A stretch of DNA of 64,000 nt from Gammaproteobacteria bacterium (lineage in GTDB: Bacteria; Pseudomonadota; Gammaproteobacteria; Pseudomonadales; JAUIET01): the NCBI GenBank assembly GCA_030431775.1, contig JAUIHW010000002.1, positions 195,087 through 259,086 of the forward strand. Direction: 5' to 3'. Each line of letters opens with the position of its first letter. Within the stretch, counting starts at the first letter, position 1. This document shows positions 6,158 to 12,346 of this stretch, in pieces. Both the position numbers and the translations under genes were made by a program. The notes under the pieces are model-generated. The model was not told the origin of the DNA, did no database searches, and saw nothing but the letters and a program-made list of their open reading frames with translations.

Positions 6158-6245
6158 TAAAAGTTTATTTATGTGTCAAATAGAGACAATGTTTCGGCAT
6201 CCGGCCACTACACTTGTTCTTCAATTGACAGCCCCTGAAGAAAAC

Positions 6246-7919
6246 ATGACTTCATTGGAAAGCAAGCTGGCCAGCATCCGTGACGACGTGATCGGTGATA
6301 ACTGCCCCATACCCACCCCTTTTGGGGAGAAGCCGCTGGTCTACGCAGACTACACAGCATCTGGCCGCAGCCTGAAGAGCATTGAGCACTATATTCAGCA
6401 GGAAGTTATGCCCTGGTACGCCAATACGCACTCAGAATCTTCATTCACCGGGCGCCAAACCACTCAGCTGCGCGAAGAAGCCCGCCGCATCATCCACAAC
6501 GCCGTGAATGGCAGTGACGAGGACCTGGTCATCTTCTGTGGGTCAGGTGCCACAGCGGCCATTCATAAGCTGATCGATATTCTAAATCTGCGACTTCCAG
6601 CTGACCTAAGCGGCCGATACCAGCTACACAAGCGCATTCCTGAAGCAGAGCGGCCGGTAGTTTTTATCGGGCCTTACGAGCACCATTCCAACGAACTGCC
6701 CTGGCGCGAGTCCATTGCAGATCTGGTGTGCGTGCCGCTTACCGATTGCGGCCAGATTGATCTCCAGGCGCTGGAACTGCAGCTCACGCGCTACCGGGAT
6801 CGGCCACTGAAGATTGGCAGCTTTTCGGCCGCATCAAACGTGACCGGGTTGAAGTCTGACACAGCGGCCATCAGCCAGCTGCTGCACCGCCATGGCGCCT
6901 TGTCCTTCTGGGATTACGCGGCAGCGGCTCCTTATACCCCTATCAACATGGGCGACGGCAAGGCCGGTTCCAATACCGTTAGCAAAGATGCTGTATTCAT
7001 TTCTCCGCATAAATTTATCGGCGGGCCGGGCACACCGGGAATACTGGTGGTAAAGAAGCATCTGCTTAAGAACTCAGTGCCAGCTGTACCCGGCGGCGGC
7101 ACTGTGTCATTTGTGACCCCCGACGAGCATCGCTATATTAGCGACGACGAGCGTCGTGAAGAAGGCGGCACACCGGCCATCATTGAATCAATCCGAGCGG
7201 GTCTGGTGTTCAAGCTGCAACAGGATGTCGGGCTGGAAAACATTGCAGCGCGTGAACACGGCTTTGTCCGTCGGGCAATCGAGCGTTGGCAGCAAAACTC
7301 GAACATTGAAATACTCGGTTGCTCGGACAAGCCGCGTTTGTCGATTGTCTCATTGCAAATTCGCAGTCATGGGAAGTACCTGCACTACGGCTTTGTGGTG
7401 GCCCTGTTAAACGACTTGTTTGGCATCCAGTCCCGTGGTGGTTGTTCCTGCGCGGGGCCTTACGGACACCAGCTGCTGGGCATCGATAAACAGACCAGCA
7501 AGGAAATAGAACAGGCGGTCAACGAAGGTCAGATGATTGTTCGACCAGGCTGGGTGCGCCTGAATTTCAACTACTTTATCGACCAGGACTGCTTCAACTA
7601 TATTCTTGATGCTGTCGATCTTATTGCCCGCTATGGCGAGCGCTTGCTGCCTTACTATCAATTTGATGAAGCATCAGCAATTTGGCGTTTTCACGGCAAA
7701 GAAGTGGTCTTGCCCAGCAGCCTGGACAACTACTCTTTGGCTAAAAACAGCACTCCGACACCCAGAGCACCCATCTCTGACTACCAGCGCTGCCTTGCGC
7801 TGGCGGAAGAGGAATTGCGAAAAATACGGCAAGATCAGCCGCGTTATGATGTGCGGCTGGAGGGGCGCTATGCGCATTTACAATGGTTCACTCTGCCCCA
7901 GGACGTAAGAGCCGCCTAA
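6246..7919 (+). CDS. Class V PLP aminotransferase (cysteine desulfurase-like)
   Basis: About 557 residues of a fold-type I, class V PLP enzyme, related to cysteine desulfurases and selenocysteine lyases but with a C-terminal extension. The PLP lysine is in SPHKFIGGPGTPG (K256 from this start), the PLP-contacting aspartate is in SFWDYAAAAPY (D223), and a cysteine-rich RGGCSCAGPYGH lies where desulfurases carry the active cysteine. The start at 6246 is chosen over 6171 because GAAGA precedes it and the extra 25 residues look non-native. It sits alone, divergent from an Lrp regulator, away from the SUF operon that has its own SufS, so it is more likely an amino-acid-degrading lyase or desulfurase than a cluster-assembly enzyme. 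Confidence 0.85.
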   Translation: MTSLESKLASIRDDVIGDNCPIPTPFGEKPLVYADYTASGRSLKSIEHYIQQEVMPWYANTHSESSFTGRQTTQLREEARRIIHNAVNGSDEDLVIFCGSGATAAIHKLIDILNLRLPADLSGRYQLHKRIPEAERPVVFIGPYEHHSNELPWRESIADLVCVPLTDCGQIDLQALELQLTRYRDRPLKIGSFSAASNVTGLKSDTAAISQLLHRHGALSFWDYAAAAPYTPINMGDGKAGSNTVSKDAVFISPHKFIGGPGTPGILVVKKHLLKNSVPAVPGGGTVSFVTPDEHRYISDDERREEGGTPAIIESIRAGLVFKLQQDVGLENIAAREHGFVRRAIERWQQNSNIEILGCSDKPRLSIVSLQIRSHGKYLHYGFVVALLNDLFGIQSRGGCSCAGPYGHQLLGIDKQTSKEIEQAVNEGQMIVRPGWVRLNFNYFIDQDCFNYILDAVDLIARYGERLLPYYQFDEASAIWRFHGKEVVLPSSLDNYSLAKNSTPTPRAPISDYQRCLALAEEELRKIRQDQPRYDVRLEGRYAHLQWFTLPQDVRAA

Positions 7920-7994: not shown

Positions 7995-8912
7995 TTATTG
8001 CCGGCCAATATACCCCGGGAAAATCACCACTTCCCCATCCGGGTTTTTCAGCTGGGTAAAAATATCCTTGGCCACAACCGCCGGGTCTTCCCAGTTGGCA
8101 GCCCGGTCAACATCTGGATTCGCCAGTGGCCCGGTGGAATGTTTGCTGATACGGGTTTTCATGCCGGCCGGTGCGGCGACAATCACCCGAATACCATCGT
8201 CTGCCACTTCACGCGCAACGGCCTGGAACAGGCCCAACAGCGCGTGTTTACTCGCCCCATAATGCCCAAGCCCCGGCGGTGAAGGGCGCACGCCGAGAAT
8301 AGATGCCACATTGACGATCACCCCACTGCCCTGCTGGCGCATTATCGGAATGGCCTGTTGTGCCAGGTGGGCATAGGCCCAGTAATTCACTTCAAACAAA
8401 TGGTGTGCATCCACCAGGTCCATTTGCTCGAGCGTCGCCAGGTAGGAGTAGCCGGCGTTATTGAACAGATAGTCAATCCGGCCGTAGGTTTCAAGCGCCT
8501 GATGGATAATGGCCGCACGCTGCCTGGCAATAGCCAGGTCCGCCTCAATAAAGATGGCCGGCACCTGGCGTTGTTTCAGCGTTTCCAGCAATTGCAATGA
8601 AGGCGCCGGGCGCATATCAACCAGCACCAGGCGCATGCCTTCATCAGCAGCCCGCAAAGCCAACTGCTTGCCCAATCCGTAGCTACTGCCGGTAATGACC
8701 GCGACTGGCCGGGTCTCGCTGTAGGCAGGAAACGCCAGGGCCTGAAACAACAGAATAAACGCCACCCACAAATGCAAAGGGCGCCCGATTGAGCGCCCTT
8801 TGTGTTTCTCATAGCCCTGCTTCTGGGCTTTCTTGCGGTCTGTATGAGTTTTCGCAACATTGTACTTTCCGGCATGCCGCGCAACCGGGTTGCGGCGTTT
8901 TCGGCTGTTCAT
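7995..8912 (-). CDS. Fusion of a small basic protein to an SDR oxidoreductase
   Basis: Reads as one 305-residue frame. Residues 1 to about 41 are a highly basic segment (MNSRKRRNPVARHAG then DRKKAQKQGYEKHKG) that resembles free-standing proteins of about 45 residues in gammaproteobacteria. Next come a hydrophobic segment like a signal peptide (WVAFILLFQALAFPAYSE) and a classical short-chain dehydrogenase with a TGSSYGLGKQ cofactor loop, an NNAGY motif and the YGASK active site. The start is fixed by AGGAG eight bases upstream and a TATAAT box 51 bases upstream; the longer frame to 8963 begins inside that box. The junction is a perfect terminator-like hairpin, so two genes may be translated separately, with the SDR starting at a TTG (near 8777). 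Confidence 0.7.
   Translation of the reverse strand: MNSRKRRNPVARHAGKYNVAKTHTDRKKAQKQGYEKHKGRSIGRPLHLWVAFILLFQALAFPAYSETRPVAVITGSSYGLGKQLALRAADEGMRLVLVDMRPAPSLQLLETLKQRQVPAIFIEADLAIARQRAAIIHQALETYGRIDYLFNNAGYSYLATLEQMDLVDAHHLFEVNYWAYAHLAQQAIPIMRQQGSGVIVNVASILGVRPSPPGLGHYGASKHALLGLFQAVAREVADDGIRVIVAAPAGMKTRISKHSTGPLANPDVDRAANWEDPAVVAKDIFTQLKNPDGEVVIFPGYIGRQ
8775..8802 (-). terminator. Hairpin inside the fusion frame, terminator-like
   Basis: Perfect 10-base arms (CAAAGGGCGC and GCGCCCTTTG) surround an 8-base loop. On the minus strand the hairpin lies exactly where a small basic protein would be expected to end. There is no long T run beyond the stem-internal TTT, so termination strength is uncertain. 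It is read through in frame as the codons joining the two parts of the fusion. Confidence 0.5.
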
Positions 8913-8962
8913 CACTACTTCTCCTGAAATGACACGCTGCCGCATGCGCGAGCAGCCAGGCA

Positions 8963-8968
8963 ATTATA
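8963..8968 (-). promoter_or_regulatory. Consensus -10 box upstream of the basic-protein/SDR gene
   Basis: A perfect TATAAT on the minus strand lies about 50 bases before the chosen ATG (8912). A CTGAAA-type -35 candidate sits 18-19 bases further upstream. It supports separate transcription of this gene from the methanethiol-oxidation operon that ends just before it. Confidence 0.5.
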
Positions 8969-9021
8969 GCGCCTTCAAGCCGATTTTTTCAGACATGTGA
9001 GCAGATGCAGCAAAAAGCCAG

Positions 9022-10275
9022 TCACTGCGGGCTCGCCGTGGTATCACCGACTGGTGCGGCAAAAGCGTCGCCAACGAGTTGCGCAACATTGCCACCCGTC
9101 AGTGCTACAAGAAAGGCCCGCAAGGCAGCTTGCTCACTCTCCACGAGGCCTAACGGCCGAATTAAAGGGCTCAGCAATTCATGCTGAACGCCGCCTCGGT
9201 TATAAAAATCGATCACCGCTTGCAGCGACAAAAATTCTCCGTTGTGCATGTACGGAGCCGTCAGCGCAACATTGCGAAGACCGGGAGTGCGGTATTTCCA
9301 GCGGTCTGCCGGCTGCAGGCTGACTTCGTAGCGGCCCAGATCATTTTCTTTGGCCTCGCCCACCGTGCTCACCAGCTTTTGGTCAACCGCCACCTGCACT
9401 CCGGGTGCCAACTGTACAGTCACTGTCGCCGGTGTTTTTTGCATTGACTCCTGATACCCGACCCCCGTGTTATGTAACTGGTGATCGGTGAACAGTGCGT
9501 ATTGTGCGCCAATGAGGTGGCAACTGCTGCAGGCCGCCTTGCCGGTAAACAAGCGAAAGCCAAGCTTCTCCTGTGCATTTAAAGCAGCCTGATCTCCAGC
9601 AAAATACCATCGGTCAAAGCGAGAATTGGCCGCAATCAGGCTTTGTTGATACTGCGCCAGCGCAAGCCCAGTATTAAGAATATTCGCCGGTTCGCCAAAG
9701 GCTTGCTGAAAAAGCTCTCGATAGTGCGGATCGGCGTGCAGCTGGTCCAGCACATAGCCCACCGAGGGGTTGTTCATTTCGTTCGCCGCAAGCAACGGCG
9801 ACCATATCTGCTGGGCCAGCTCCCGTTCACGCGCGTCCCAGAACAGTCGTTGGTTGAACGCAACATTCAGCAGCGTTGGCGCATTGCGTTTAACACCACG
9901 GCCTTCAAAACCGATGGGGCGTTTCAGTTCATTGCTGGTAAATCCCTGCTCCGGTATATGGCACATGGCACATGACATGGTTCGATTGCGCGACAGTCGG
10001 CGGTCGAAAAACAACTTACGACCAAGCTGGATTGCCCCGGCATTGGGCGCGGCAACCTGGAAATCGGCCAGCGGGGGTAAACCAAGGTGTTCTGCGCGCG
10101 CGTTTGCTGCCAGATCAATGGCGCTGCCGCGCCGCCTGGCCAGGCTTAACGAATCCGTCTGGTAATCCGCACGGCGATATCCCGTTTTGTCGTCGCCCGG
10201 GGCAAGCCGAATCGACAGCGGCGGCTCCGCCAGGACCAGGCTTGCGCCCAGCAAAAAGCAGCACGCAAGGCGCAT
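9022..10275 (-). CDS. MauG/cytochrome c peroxidase-like di-haem protein
   Basis: A 417-residue exported protein with two haem c attachment sites, CAMCH (C102-H106) and CSSCH (C249-H253), in the arrangement of the bacterial di-haem peroxidase/MauG family. The signal peptide covers about the first 16 residues (LLGASLVLA). MauG enzymes perform oxidative post-translational maturation, and related peroxidases remove H2O2. Its ATG lies two bases after the stop of the SCO gene, and both follow mtoX, an order known from methanethiol oxidase loci. It may mature MtoX or remove the H2O2 that MtoX makes; the sequence does not decide between these. Confidence 0.85.
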   Translation of the reverse strand: MRLACCFLLGASLVLAEPPLSIRLAPGDDKTGYRRADYQTDSLSLARRRGSAIDLAANARAEHLGLPPLADFQVAAPNAGAIQLGRKLFFDRRLSRNRTMSCAMCHIPEQGFTSNELKRPIGFEGRGVKRNAPTLLNVAFNQRLFWDARERELAQQIWSPLLAANEMNNPSVGYVLDQLHADPHYRELFQQAFGEPANILNTGLALAQYQQSLIAANSRFDRWYFAGDQAALNAQEKLGFRLFTGKAACSSCHLIGAQYALFTDHQLHNTGVGYQESMQKTPATVTVQLAPGVQVAVDQKLVSTVGEAKENDLGRYEVSLQPADRWKYRTPGLRNVALTAPYMHNGEFLSLQAVIDFYNRGGVQHELLSPLIRPLGLVESEQAALRAFLVALTGGNVAQLVGDAFAAPVGDTTASPQ

Positions 10276-10277
10276 TG

Positions 10278-11000
10278 CTATTGTGCAGCGACCGCCGGGC
10301 TCGCCGCAGCGTCACCTTCCAGCAGCAGGGTTTTCACATCGTTCACCAGAATATCCGGATGCAGGAAAGACAGGCTGTAAATATTGCGAATTTGCGCCTG
10401 AGTGTCGATCAGGTACACGCGAAGAATATGCGAAAATTTCCCCTGACCGTCCTTTCCGCTGACATCCGCCACTACGTATTGCTGGTAGGCATCAAGCACC
10501 GGCTGAATTTGCTCATCCGACTCACTGGTCAGGAAGTGCCAATTCAGCGTCGCCTTGCCCATGATCGAACGGGCGTACTCAGCCATCGCCTGCGGTGTGT
10601 CATTGCGCGGGTCGAAACTGATGGTAATCAGGCGCAGCCGCTGGGCCAGCTGCGGCTGTTTCTGCAAGCGATTGGCAACCGTGCGCAATACCATGGTAGA
10701 CAATGGGCAGCCATTCACATCATCACAGGTGCGGTATATGAACCCCAGCAGAGTAATGTGGTCTTGTAGCAGCTCGGACAACTCAACACGCTTCCCGCTG
10801 GAATTCAGCAGCGTGCCGCCGGCTGCTTTCTCCAGCGCCGGCAGTTTATAGCTACCGGCCGGTGGCGCGTCAAATGACAGCTTGCCCCAGCCCGGCGCCA
10901 GATACACCTCCTGGCGATCAGCTTTCTCGGCCGCCAGCAACGGCGCTGAAAACAGCAGCCCACCGAGTAAGGCAAGCCCTATGGCACCGCGTGGTTTCAT
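10278..11000 (-). CDS. SCO1/SenC-like copper chaperone of the mtoX operon
   Basis: A 240-residue thioredoxin-fold protein of the SCO/SenC family with an N-terminal signal peptide (cleavage near LLAAEK, about residue 23). SCO proteins deliver copper, usually through a CxxxC pair and a distal histidine. Here the pair is spaced differently (C92 DDVNG C98, a Cx5C motif), while the histidine is present in KFSHILRVYLID (H191). It overlaps the end of mtoX by an ATGA junction, so it is translationally coupled to it. The likely job is loading or maintaining copper in the periplasmic methanethiol oxidase. Confidence 0.87.
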   Translation of the reverse strand: MKPRGAIGLALLGGLLFSAPLLAAEKADRQEVYLAPGWGKLSFDAPPAGSYKLPALEKAAGGTLLNSSGKRVELSELLQDHITLLGFIYRTCDDVNGCPLSTMVLRTVANRLQKQPQLAQRLRLITISFDPRNDTPQAMAEYARSIMGKATLNWHFLTSESDEQIQPVLDAYQQYVVADVSGKDGQGKFSHILRVYLIDTQAQIRNIYSLSFLHPDILVNDVKTLLLEGDAAASPAVAAQ

Positions 11001-12346
11001 TCTCCAGCCGCGATATCCCTGGCCGCATATGGGCGCTGCAGGCCATACAACCCATAGGCGCCAAAACGCATCTGATGCGCACTGCCGAGTTTCTCGGCTT
11101 TAAAATCCACTGCGAACTCCAGGTTTAGCTCCTTACCGTCCCAGGTGTAGGCCTTGAAAAACTGTTCGTCCTGATCGCCCTTCTTATCCCAATTGTCCAA
11201 TAGCGACGATGTGAAATATGCGCGCTTGCCGTCCCAGCTTTGTGAAATCATATTCAGCTGCGCGCCAATTACTTTCTCATACACCTGCTTGGGTGCAAAA
11301 GGGTCAGTAATATCAAAGTAGCGGGTTTTGCCATCCATAAAGGTCTGCACCCAAAGGCCACTGTCATCCGAGGTAATAGAGATATCCACCGGCAGCGGCA
11401 CCTTGGACGGGTCCCCGATATCAGCCACGGCCTTGGCCTGCCAAACCCCATTGGCATCTTCATACAGCAACCAGATTTTTGAGGTCAGCGCCGTGGTGGT
11501 GAAGCAGTAGTTATGGTTCGGTTGCCAGGCGCAGCGAATTTCCAGTGGCGCGCCCGGCATATCAAACACTTTCTTTGGCTTGCGGGTGTGCAGATCCCAC
11601 AGTACCGCCGTATTGCCGAAGCGCTTCATGGCTTCTTCGTCGGCCAGCATGGTTCCAAAATCCATCATGTAGTTTGACCAGCCGGTGAAGCTGGAGGTAA
11701 ACATGGCATTGCGCCGCGGCAGTACCCGTACGTCATAGCCGTAACCGTCAGCATACTTGCCGGATTTCTCCGCGCCATTCAGGCTGTCATCCGTGGGGTG
11801 CCAGTGCGTCGCTATGTACTCTCCTTTATTGGAATACTCCACCATCGCTGTGCGCCCGCCATGGTCTTTATTATTGGACAGACCGGTAATCATCATCCGC
11901 CCGGCCAGGGCATAAAAAGTGTGAGGCCCAACGACGCCGCCACTCTTGGCCACAAAATCGTCGATGGTTTTGTGCAACTTCGGTTTGGCCGGATCGCTGT
12001 GCACATCGAAGATAAAAATCTTACTGGTGTCCAGGCCACCGGCCCAAAGATAGCGCCGATCATCACTGAACCCGGAGTGGTGTGCCTCATTACGCCCACC
12101 AACCGACAGCGTGTGAACAACCTGGCCATAATTCGGCGAGGCCGGATTTACGTCAATCGTTACCAGCTTATCCTGCTCGTCGCCCAGCCCTTCTTCACCC
12201 AGGGTCCATACATACACAAAGTCTTCCTGGCCAACAATTTTGGCCATGTATGGGGACATACAAGTCTCATCGGCCTGTACCGCAAAGCCCGCCAGCAATA
12301 GCAGCACAGTCGCCAATTTGTAAAATGGAAGATATGGCTTATCCAT
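10997..12346 (-). CDS. mtoX: Methanethiol oxidase (selenium-binding protein SBP56 family)
   Basis: A 449-residue member of the SBP56/SELENBP1 family, matching the bacterial methanethiol oxidase MtoX. MtoX oxidises methanethiol to formaldehyde, H2S and H2O2 in the periplasm and is reported to contain copper. Seen here: a signal peptide (LLLLAGFAVQA, about residues 14-25), then family segments such as NEAHHSGF, PKLHKTI, GPHTFYAL, PLEIRC and SAHQMRFG, and full family length. The start has AGGAG eight bases upstream. It heads an operon with the SCO and MauG-like genes, the accessory pair described beside mtoX in Hyphomicrobium. The host is therefore predicted to use methanethiol from DMS or DMSP turnover. 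Confidence 0.9.
   Translation of the reverse strand: MDKPYLPFYKLATVLLLLAGFAVQADETCMSPYMAKIVGQEDFVYVWTLGEEGLGDEQDKLVTIDVNPASPNYGQVVHTLSVGGRNEAHHSGFSDDRRYLWAGGLDTSKIFIFDVHSDPAKPKLHKTIDDFVAKSGGVVGPHTFYALAGRMMITGLSNNKDHGGRTAMVEYSNKGEYIATHWHPTDDSLNGAEKSGKYADGYGYDVRVLPRRNAMFTSSFTGWSNYMMDFGTMLADEEAMKRFGNTAVLWDLHTRKPKKVFDMPGAPLEIRCAWQPNHNYCFTTTALTSKIWLLYEDANGVWQAKAVADIGDPSKVPLPVDISITSDDSGLWVQTFMDGKTRYFDITDPFAPKQVYEKVIGAQLNMISQSWDGKRAYFTSSLLDNWDKKGDQDEQFFKAYTWDGKELNLEFAVDFKAEKLGSAHQMRFGAYGLYGLQRPYAARDIAAGE

Follow-up and report, generated by a model that had tools for sequence, protein, structure and literature searches.

A hairpin within the arfA reading frame is reported to give rise to a non-stop mRNA, through RNase III cleavage in E. 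coli and through transcription termination in Neisseria (PMC8327144). In Bacillus subtilis, the non-stop mRNA of BrfA is described as arising from a terminator inside the coding region, and the protein, reported mainly from the genus Bacillus, as an RF2-dependent backup that is degraded through trans-translation (PMC6881298). Both the ArfA and the BrfA products are said to be destroyed via trans-translation unless this pathway fails (PMC8327144, PMC6881298), and a KH motif is given as common to the two proteins (PMC8012679). ArfT is the backup rescue factor of Francisella tularensis, presented as a gammaproteobacterium without ArfA and ArfB; it has 40 aa and is basic near its C-terminus, and its gene is described as having neither a terminator nor an RNase III site ahead of the stop codon. 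The same report gives KGKGS as the mRNA-channel motif of ArfA (PMC6299226). According to the published view, further release factor-dependent rescue factors probably exist and are not easily detected through sequence similarity (PMC8012679, PMC6881298). The candidate described here, DUF7230, was revealed by gene design and not by sequence. No paper naming DUF7230 or PF23876 was found in the literature library searched, and the literature on rescue factors, judged by titles and abstracts, dealt only with known factors and unrelated matters.

Layout of the DUF7230-SDR reading frame

The locus lies in a stretch of DNA of 64,000 nucleotides that was analysed as a whole and is called the window below. 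Its features are the following:

7995..8912, minus strand: whole open frame, DUF7230 and SDR read as one; 305 aa plus stop, with the ATG at 8912 and the stop ending at 7995
8963..8992, minus strand: sigma-70-like promoter; CTGAAA (8992-8987), 18-nt spacer, TATAAT (8968-8963)
8921..8925, minus strand: Shine-Dalgarno-like AGGAG, 8 nt upstream of the ATG; read from the sequence
8793..8900, minus strand: DUF7230 (PF23876) core, residues 5-40, KRRNPVARHAGKYN...DRKKAQKQGYEKHKGR; Pfam profile match
8775..8802, minus strand: hairpin within the ORF, 12 bp with a loop of 4, from fold and z-score; proposed mRNA end
8718..8777, minus strand: hydrophobic segment resembling a signal peptide or anchor, residues about 46-65, LHLWVAFILLFQALAFPAYS; read from the translation
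8139..8705, minus strand: classical SDR domain (adh_short, PF00106), residues 70-258; profile match

The original prediction took the promoter, the ribosome site and the first 41 codons for a stand-alone basic protein, and this part does match DUF7230 (PF23876), a domain of unknown function that forms a single gene elsewhere. The gathering cut-off of 27 bits is exceeded both by residues 1-41 (48.5 bits) and by the full protein (44.6 bits). The promoter agrees with the consensus at 10 of 12 positions; in shuffles of the 1.2-kb region, a mean of 0.4 such sites is expected. No in-frame stop occurs in the window sequence from the hairpin to the SDR, and the 305-aa frame runs, as predicted, through the signal-peptide-like segment into a complete SDR (adh_short 156.6 bits, profile positions 2-189 of 195). 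Classical SDRs are defined by the motifs TGxxxGxG, NNAG and YxxxK. The 3' half of the frame resembles them in having all of these motifs, which read TGSSYGLG, NNAG and YGASK in the translation, and differs in the hydrophobic segment and the in-frame DUF7230 that precede the SDR. GC3 is alike in the DUF7230 and SDR parts (0.61 versus 0.65). A start of the SDR at a TTG (or GTG) near the hairpin had also been proposed. In-frame non-ATG starts exist there at codons 46, 48, 50 and 55; none has a Shine-Dalgarno-like sequence within the 20 bases upstream, so that this proposal found no support from a ribosome site.

The hairpin within DUF7230 genes

The perfect 10-bp hairpin that had been noticed at the expected gene end was recovered at 8802-8775, directly after the conserved K-H (His37) of DUF7230. 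Its ten perfect pairs can be extended to 12, including one G-U, around a loop of 4, and the structure reaches −22.9 kcal/mol, with a z-score of −3.65 and only one of 200 dinucleotide shuffles as good. The stem is short for RNase III. The T-tail on its 3' side, beginning CATTTG, is weak and poor for a terminator, and the hairpin is absent from the list produced by a consensus terminator scan. Short hairpins, of 11-12 bp, are also known in ArfA loci (L024, L195-L197), and that of P. aeruginosa arfA falls, according to PMC13159725, below the length of known RNase III substrates.

We then asked how DUF7230 genes are built elsewhere, comparing 140 distinct loci, which come mostly from one order and are therefore not independent, with 371 other ORFs from the same DNA. 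The test used an ungapped stem score and demanded that the stem start at least 9 nt ahead of the stop codon. At a score of at least 28, a stem was found in 130 of the 140 DUF7230 loci and in 21 of the 371 control ORFs; at the stricter threshold of 36 the counts were 117 and 7, respectively. In eight of the 11 controls scoring at least 32, by our reading, the ORF overlaps with the very hairpin of a DUF7230 gene. Folding energy as the sole measure was dropped since it separated the two sets poorly (130/140 versus 111/371 at −24 kcal/mol), imperfect folds being common in the GC-richer controls.

The 5' arm starts 28-31 codons past a conserved Asn (5th-95th percentile), a range that includes the window hairpin, which by manual count starts just under 30 codons past it. 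The stop codon follows 39-70 codons past the same residue, and lies within the hairpin in 30 of the 130 hairpin-bearing loci and past it in the other 100. A hairpin without a preceding stop, regarded as an anomaly in the original prediction, does belong to the DUF7230 gene but represents the usual design of the family. Ten loci failed the in-ORF stem test (L002, L010, L011, L012, L015, L016, L017, L018, L092 and L153); in L002 a long outer stem around the stop is missed by the score and visible in the fold, and in L016 the hairpin is located after the stop. Outside the methanotroph order the design occurs in eight of 15 loci, seven of them by score and L002 because its fold shows the stem.

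Selection acts to keep the stem: in an alignment of 60 methanotroph sequences, picked by eye from 106 non-redundant hairpins as the long-stem type, 26 of 27 pairs have changed on both sides and 89.1% of cells pair; the sequences are related, so these counts are not independent events. The covariation score was 0.651; shuffles gave 0.237, and structures slid along the alignment did not exceed 0.163, the latter contrast retaining the relatedness. Among other features of the family, K and H at core positions 26-27 are each present in 117 of 122 sequences, and 20 of 139 ORFs, compared with 2 of 371 controls, end in AA in the manner of degron-like tails. TTTTT follows the stem in 15 of the 130 hairpin-bearing loci. 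Separately, L013, L014, L081 and L094 have compact GC stems with T-runs, of the terminator type rather than the long RNase III type. Where the stop lies past the hairpin, it comes sooner than stops in the other two frames do (median 10.7 versus 14 codons, p 0.0016), and the idea that the stop codon is wholly free of selection was rejected for this reason. Among eight loci searched, no Rfam family covers the hairpin, the single match being a tRNA in L014.

DUF7230 itself is scattered. It was detected in 13 of 369 genomes sampled from the class at E ≤ 0.001 (11 above the cut-off) and in five of 56 closer relatives, counting the window genome, at E ≤ 0.01 (four above the cut-off). In one order, mostly of methanotrophs and taken to be Methylococcales, it is present in 72 of the 121 genomes sampled; 80 loci came from the scan with sequences of this order, mostly from Methylomonas, Methylobacter, Methylovulum, Methylotuvimicrobium and their kin. 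The locus set leaves out the DUF7230-positive genomes G464, G515 and G521, a second match in G495, and L006, which scored 18.7 bits and was not confirmed with our own profile. Two matches per genome were seen only in G512 (L045, L070) and G495 (C12, C56) among the 72 positive genomes.

DUF7230 as a candidate ribosome-rescue factor

When the same hairpin test was applied to ArfA as a positive control, all 21 located genes contained an in-ORF hairpin; in three of the 24 loci tried (L189, L191 and L194) the motif did not locate the gene. L025, a match below the cut-off that has no such stem, was not among these 24. ArfA (PF03889) resembles DUF7230 in being small and basic, with an in-ORF hairpin and a stop within or after it; in extra tails that are hydrophobic or end in -AA, several ArfA genes ending so; in a basic C-terminus ending near K-H; and in its scattered occurrence in Gammaproteobacteria. 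However, KGKGS is absent from DUF7230, which ends in a K/R-rich Y-x-R-x-x-K-H and has a conserved NPVAK...FNKA...DK block instead. By their published descriptions, BrfA shares the internal-hairpin gene design and the KH motif, whereas ArfT shares the short length, the basic region near the C-terminus and a gammaproteobacterial host without ArfA and ArfB, and differs in a gene design without an internal hairpin. The window gene carries the in-ORF hairpin that characterizes the class of tmRNA-controlled rescue factors (ArfA, BrfA). A hairpin inside the ORF at a conserved place, as in ArfA, suggests that DUF7230 is very probably an unrecognised member of this class.

No PF03889 match was found in the window genome or in the eight DUF7230 proteins scanned, and no PDB relative of DUF7230 was found. 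Profile comparison with hhalign gave a single-comparison E of 0.0022 for ArfA versus DUF7230; the reversed profile reaches 0.015, and among 150 column shuffles in each of three modes, 1, 1 and 0 scored as high as the real comparison. The score of 16.4 compares with 13.2 for the reversed profile, and therefore composition explains much of it. As this result is suggestive and not significant, common descent of the two families is not claimed. As a side observation, the short proteins of L016 (G316) and L018 (G410) combine an N-P-[IV]-A-K start as in DUF7230 with a TPRFRxRVV block as in ArfA, and match the ArfA profile in hmmsearch at 5.4e-6 and 7e-5 among 90 sequences. Both genes are without an in-ORF hairpin; they are possible links between the two families.

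The gene content of the genomes was also considered. tmRNA is present in all 12 genomes examined, including that of the window. The window genome encodes only two PF00472 proteins, both of RF1/RF2 size, and no PF00472 gene of ArfB size. Such a gene occurs in one of 11 DUF7230-positive genomes (G016), two of the 11 being less than 90% complete. A relative of the same genus (G001) is without DUF7230 at E ≤ 0.01 and has a PF00472 gene with an open frame of 147 aa; from their size, we read these short PF00472 genes as putative ArfB. ArfA was found in none of the 121 genomes of the methanotroph order. In the class sample, ArfA is present in seven genomes and overlaps with DUF7230 in none, where about 0.25 would be expected; these numbers do not allow a statistical test of whether DUF7230 avoids ArfA.

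We propose the following scenario. The DUF7230 mRNA would normally be ended at the in-frame hairpin, ahead of any stop codon, with intrinsic termination in some lineages and RNase III in others; that the message may end there is strongly supported by the comparison of loci. Ribosomes would then reach a 3' end without a stop, and consequently tmRNA-SmpB would tag the product for destruction as long as trans-translation works. Once trans-translation is saturated, a DUF7230 protein of roughly 40-45 aa would survive, by analogy with ArfA and BrfA, and could serve as a backup rescue factor, its basic K-H tail entering the empty mRNA channel and the protein recruiting a release factor. Both the policing of the non-stop peptide by tmRNA and rescue with a release factor are what we infer from these relatives in design. 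If true, bacteria able to live without trans-translation can be predicted from the distribution of DUF7230, and a 45-aa protein is available for in vitro testing.

Origin of the fusion and competing explanations

Relatives were checked for separate genes and for the position of the stop codon, as had been suggested. DUF7230 is separate elsewhere, and of the 100 loci with the hairpin ahead of the stop, 99 have their stop no more than 31 codons past the hairpin; the window frame reaches one after 259. An uninterrupted ancient fusion, the counter-case to a recent event, was looked for, and the same fusion was found in none of the DUF7230 relatives examined. A search of 56 related genomes with the SDR part gave a best identity of 36% outside the window genome and no SDR orthologue with its own start. 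Judged from the compared sequences, a hairpin ahead of the stop is normal for DUF7230, and the absence of a later stop is the unusual part. The suggestion that a stop was lost, creating a new fusion, is thus retained as to its lineage-specific nature, but the lost stop belongs after the hairpin and not before it. The fusion is probably a local accident, a lineage-specific single stop loss. Such a loss would be tolerated because the stop lies downstream of the usual end of the mRNA; in the window lineage the frame would then happen to join that of the following SDR, and the 305-aa fusion would be made only from read-through transcripts. We consider this whole explanation, from the hairpin-ended non-stop message and the tmRNA-policed rescue factor to the tolerated stop loss and the chance join with the SDR, to be likely. 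The locus would then exemplify the way in which a gene able to dispense with its stop codon runs into its neighbour.

Other readings deserve consideration. The 305-aa protein could be a real, functional fusion in which DUF7230 extends a signal-anchored SDR at its N-terminus and the hairpin is there by chance. The frame is indeed open through 305 codons, the SDR is complete, GC3 is similar in both parts, and since the starts at codons 46-55 are without a Shine-Dalgarno sequence, translation of the SDR may depend on the ATG upstream. However, the hairpin-before-stop locus that comes second in run length past the hairpin reaches 30 codons, the best SDR relative elsewhere is the one at 36% identity, and the hairpin stands exactly at the position typical of the family. 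Moreover, a gap of 20-25 codons would by our estimate stay open with a probability of about 0.3, times 1/3 for the frame of the SDR, and frame continuity is therefore cheap by chance; we regard this fusion as improbable. A somewhat better, although still unlikely, possibility combines both ideas: DUF7230 would be a tmRNA-policed rescue class of separate origin from ArfA or only very remotely related to it, and the window hairpin a two-way switch, with hairpin-ended messages giving the rescue factor and read-through giving a membrane-targeted DUF7230-SDR fusion.

The hairpin might also be an ordinary terminator, DUF7230 having another role (for example as a small nucleic-acid- or ribosome-binding protein) and the missing stop being a coincidence. 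U-tracts after the stem in some members, the seven of 15 non-methanotroph loci without an in-ORF hairpin and the lack of a solved DUF7230 relative would fit. Yet such terminators start after the stop, whereas here the 5' arm lies in the ORF, with constant spacing from the core, in the great majority of loci; the stop is even inside the stem-loop in 30 of them, and ArfA genes give an equal picture. We find this reading just as improbable as the functional fusion. An assembly or sequencing error, by which a stop or the correct frame was lost between hairpin and SDR, seems, by a small step, less probable again: the genome is a draft in 121 contigs and this is the sole hairpin-bearing locus without a nearby stop, but both halves are intact and similar in GC3, and no repeat or ambiguity was noticed at the junction.

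As to the surroundings of the frame, genes for SBP56, SCO1/SenC and a MauG-type di-haem peroxidase lie in a row just upstream of the DUF7230 gene (9022-12346, minus strand), a layout that we take to be that of a methanethiol oxidase (mtoX) cluster, and a class-V aminotransferase gene (6171-7919, plus strand) is convergent with the end of the SDR.
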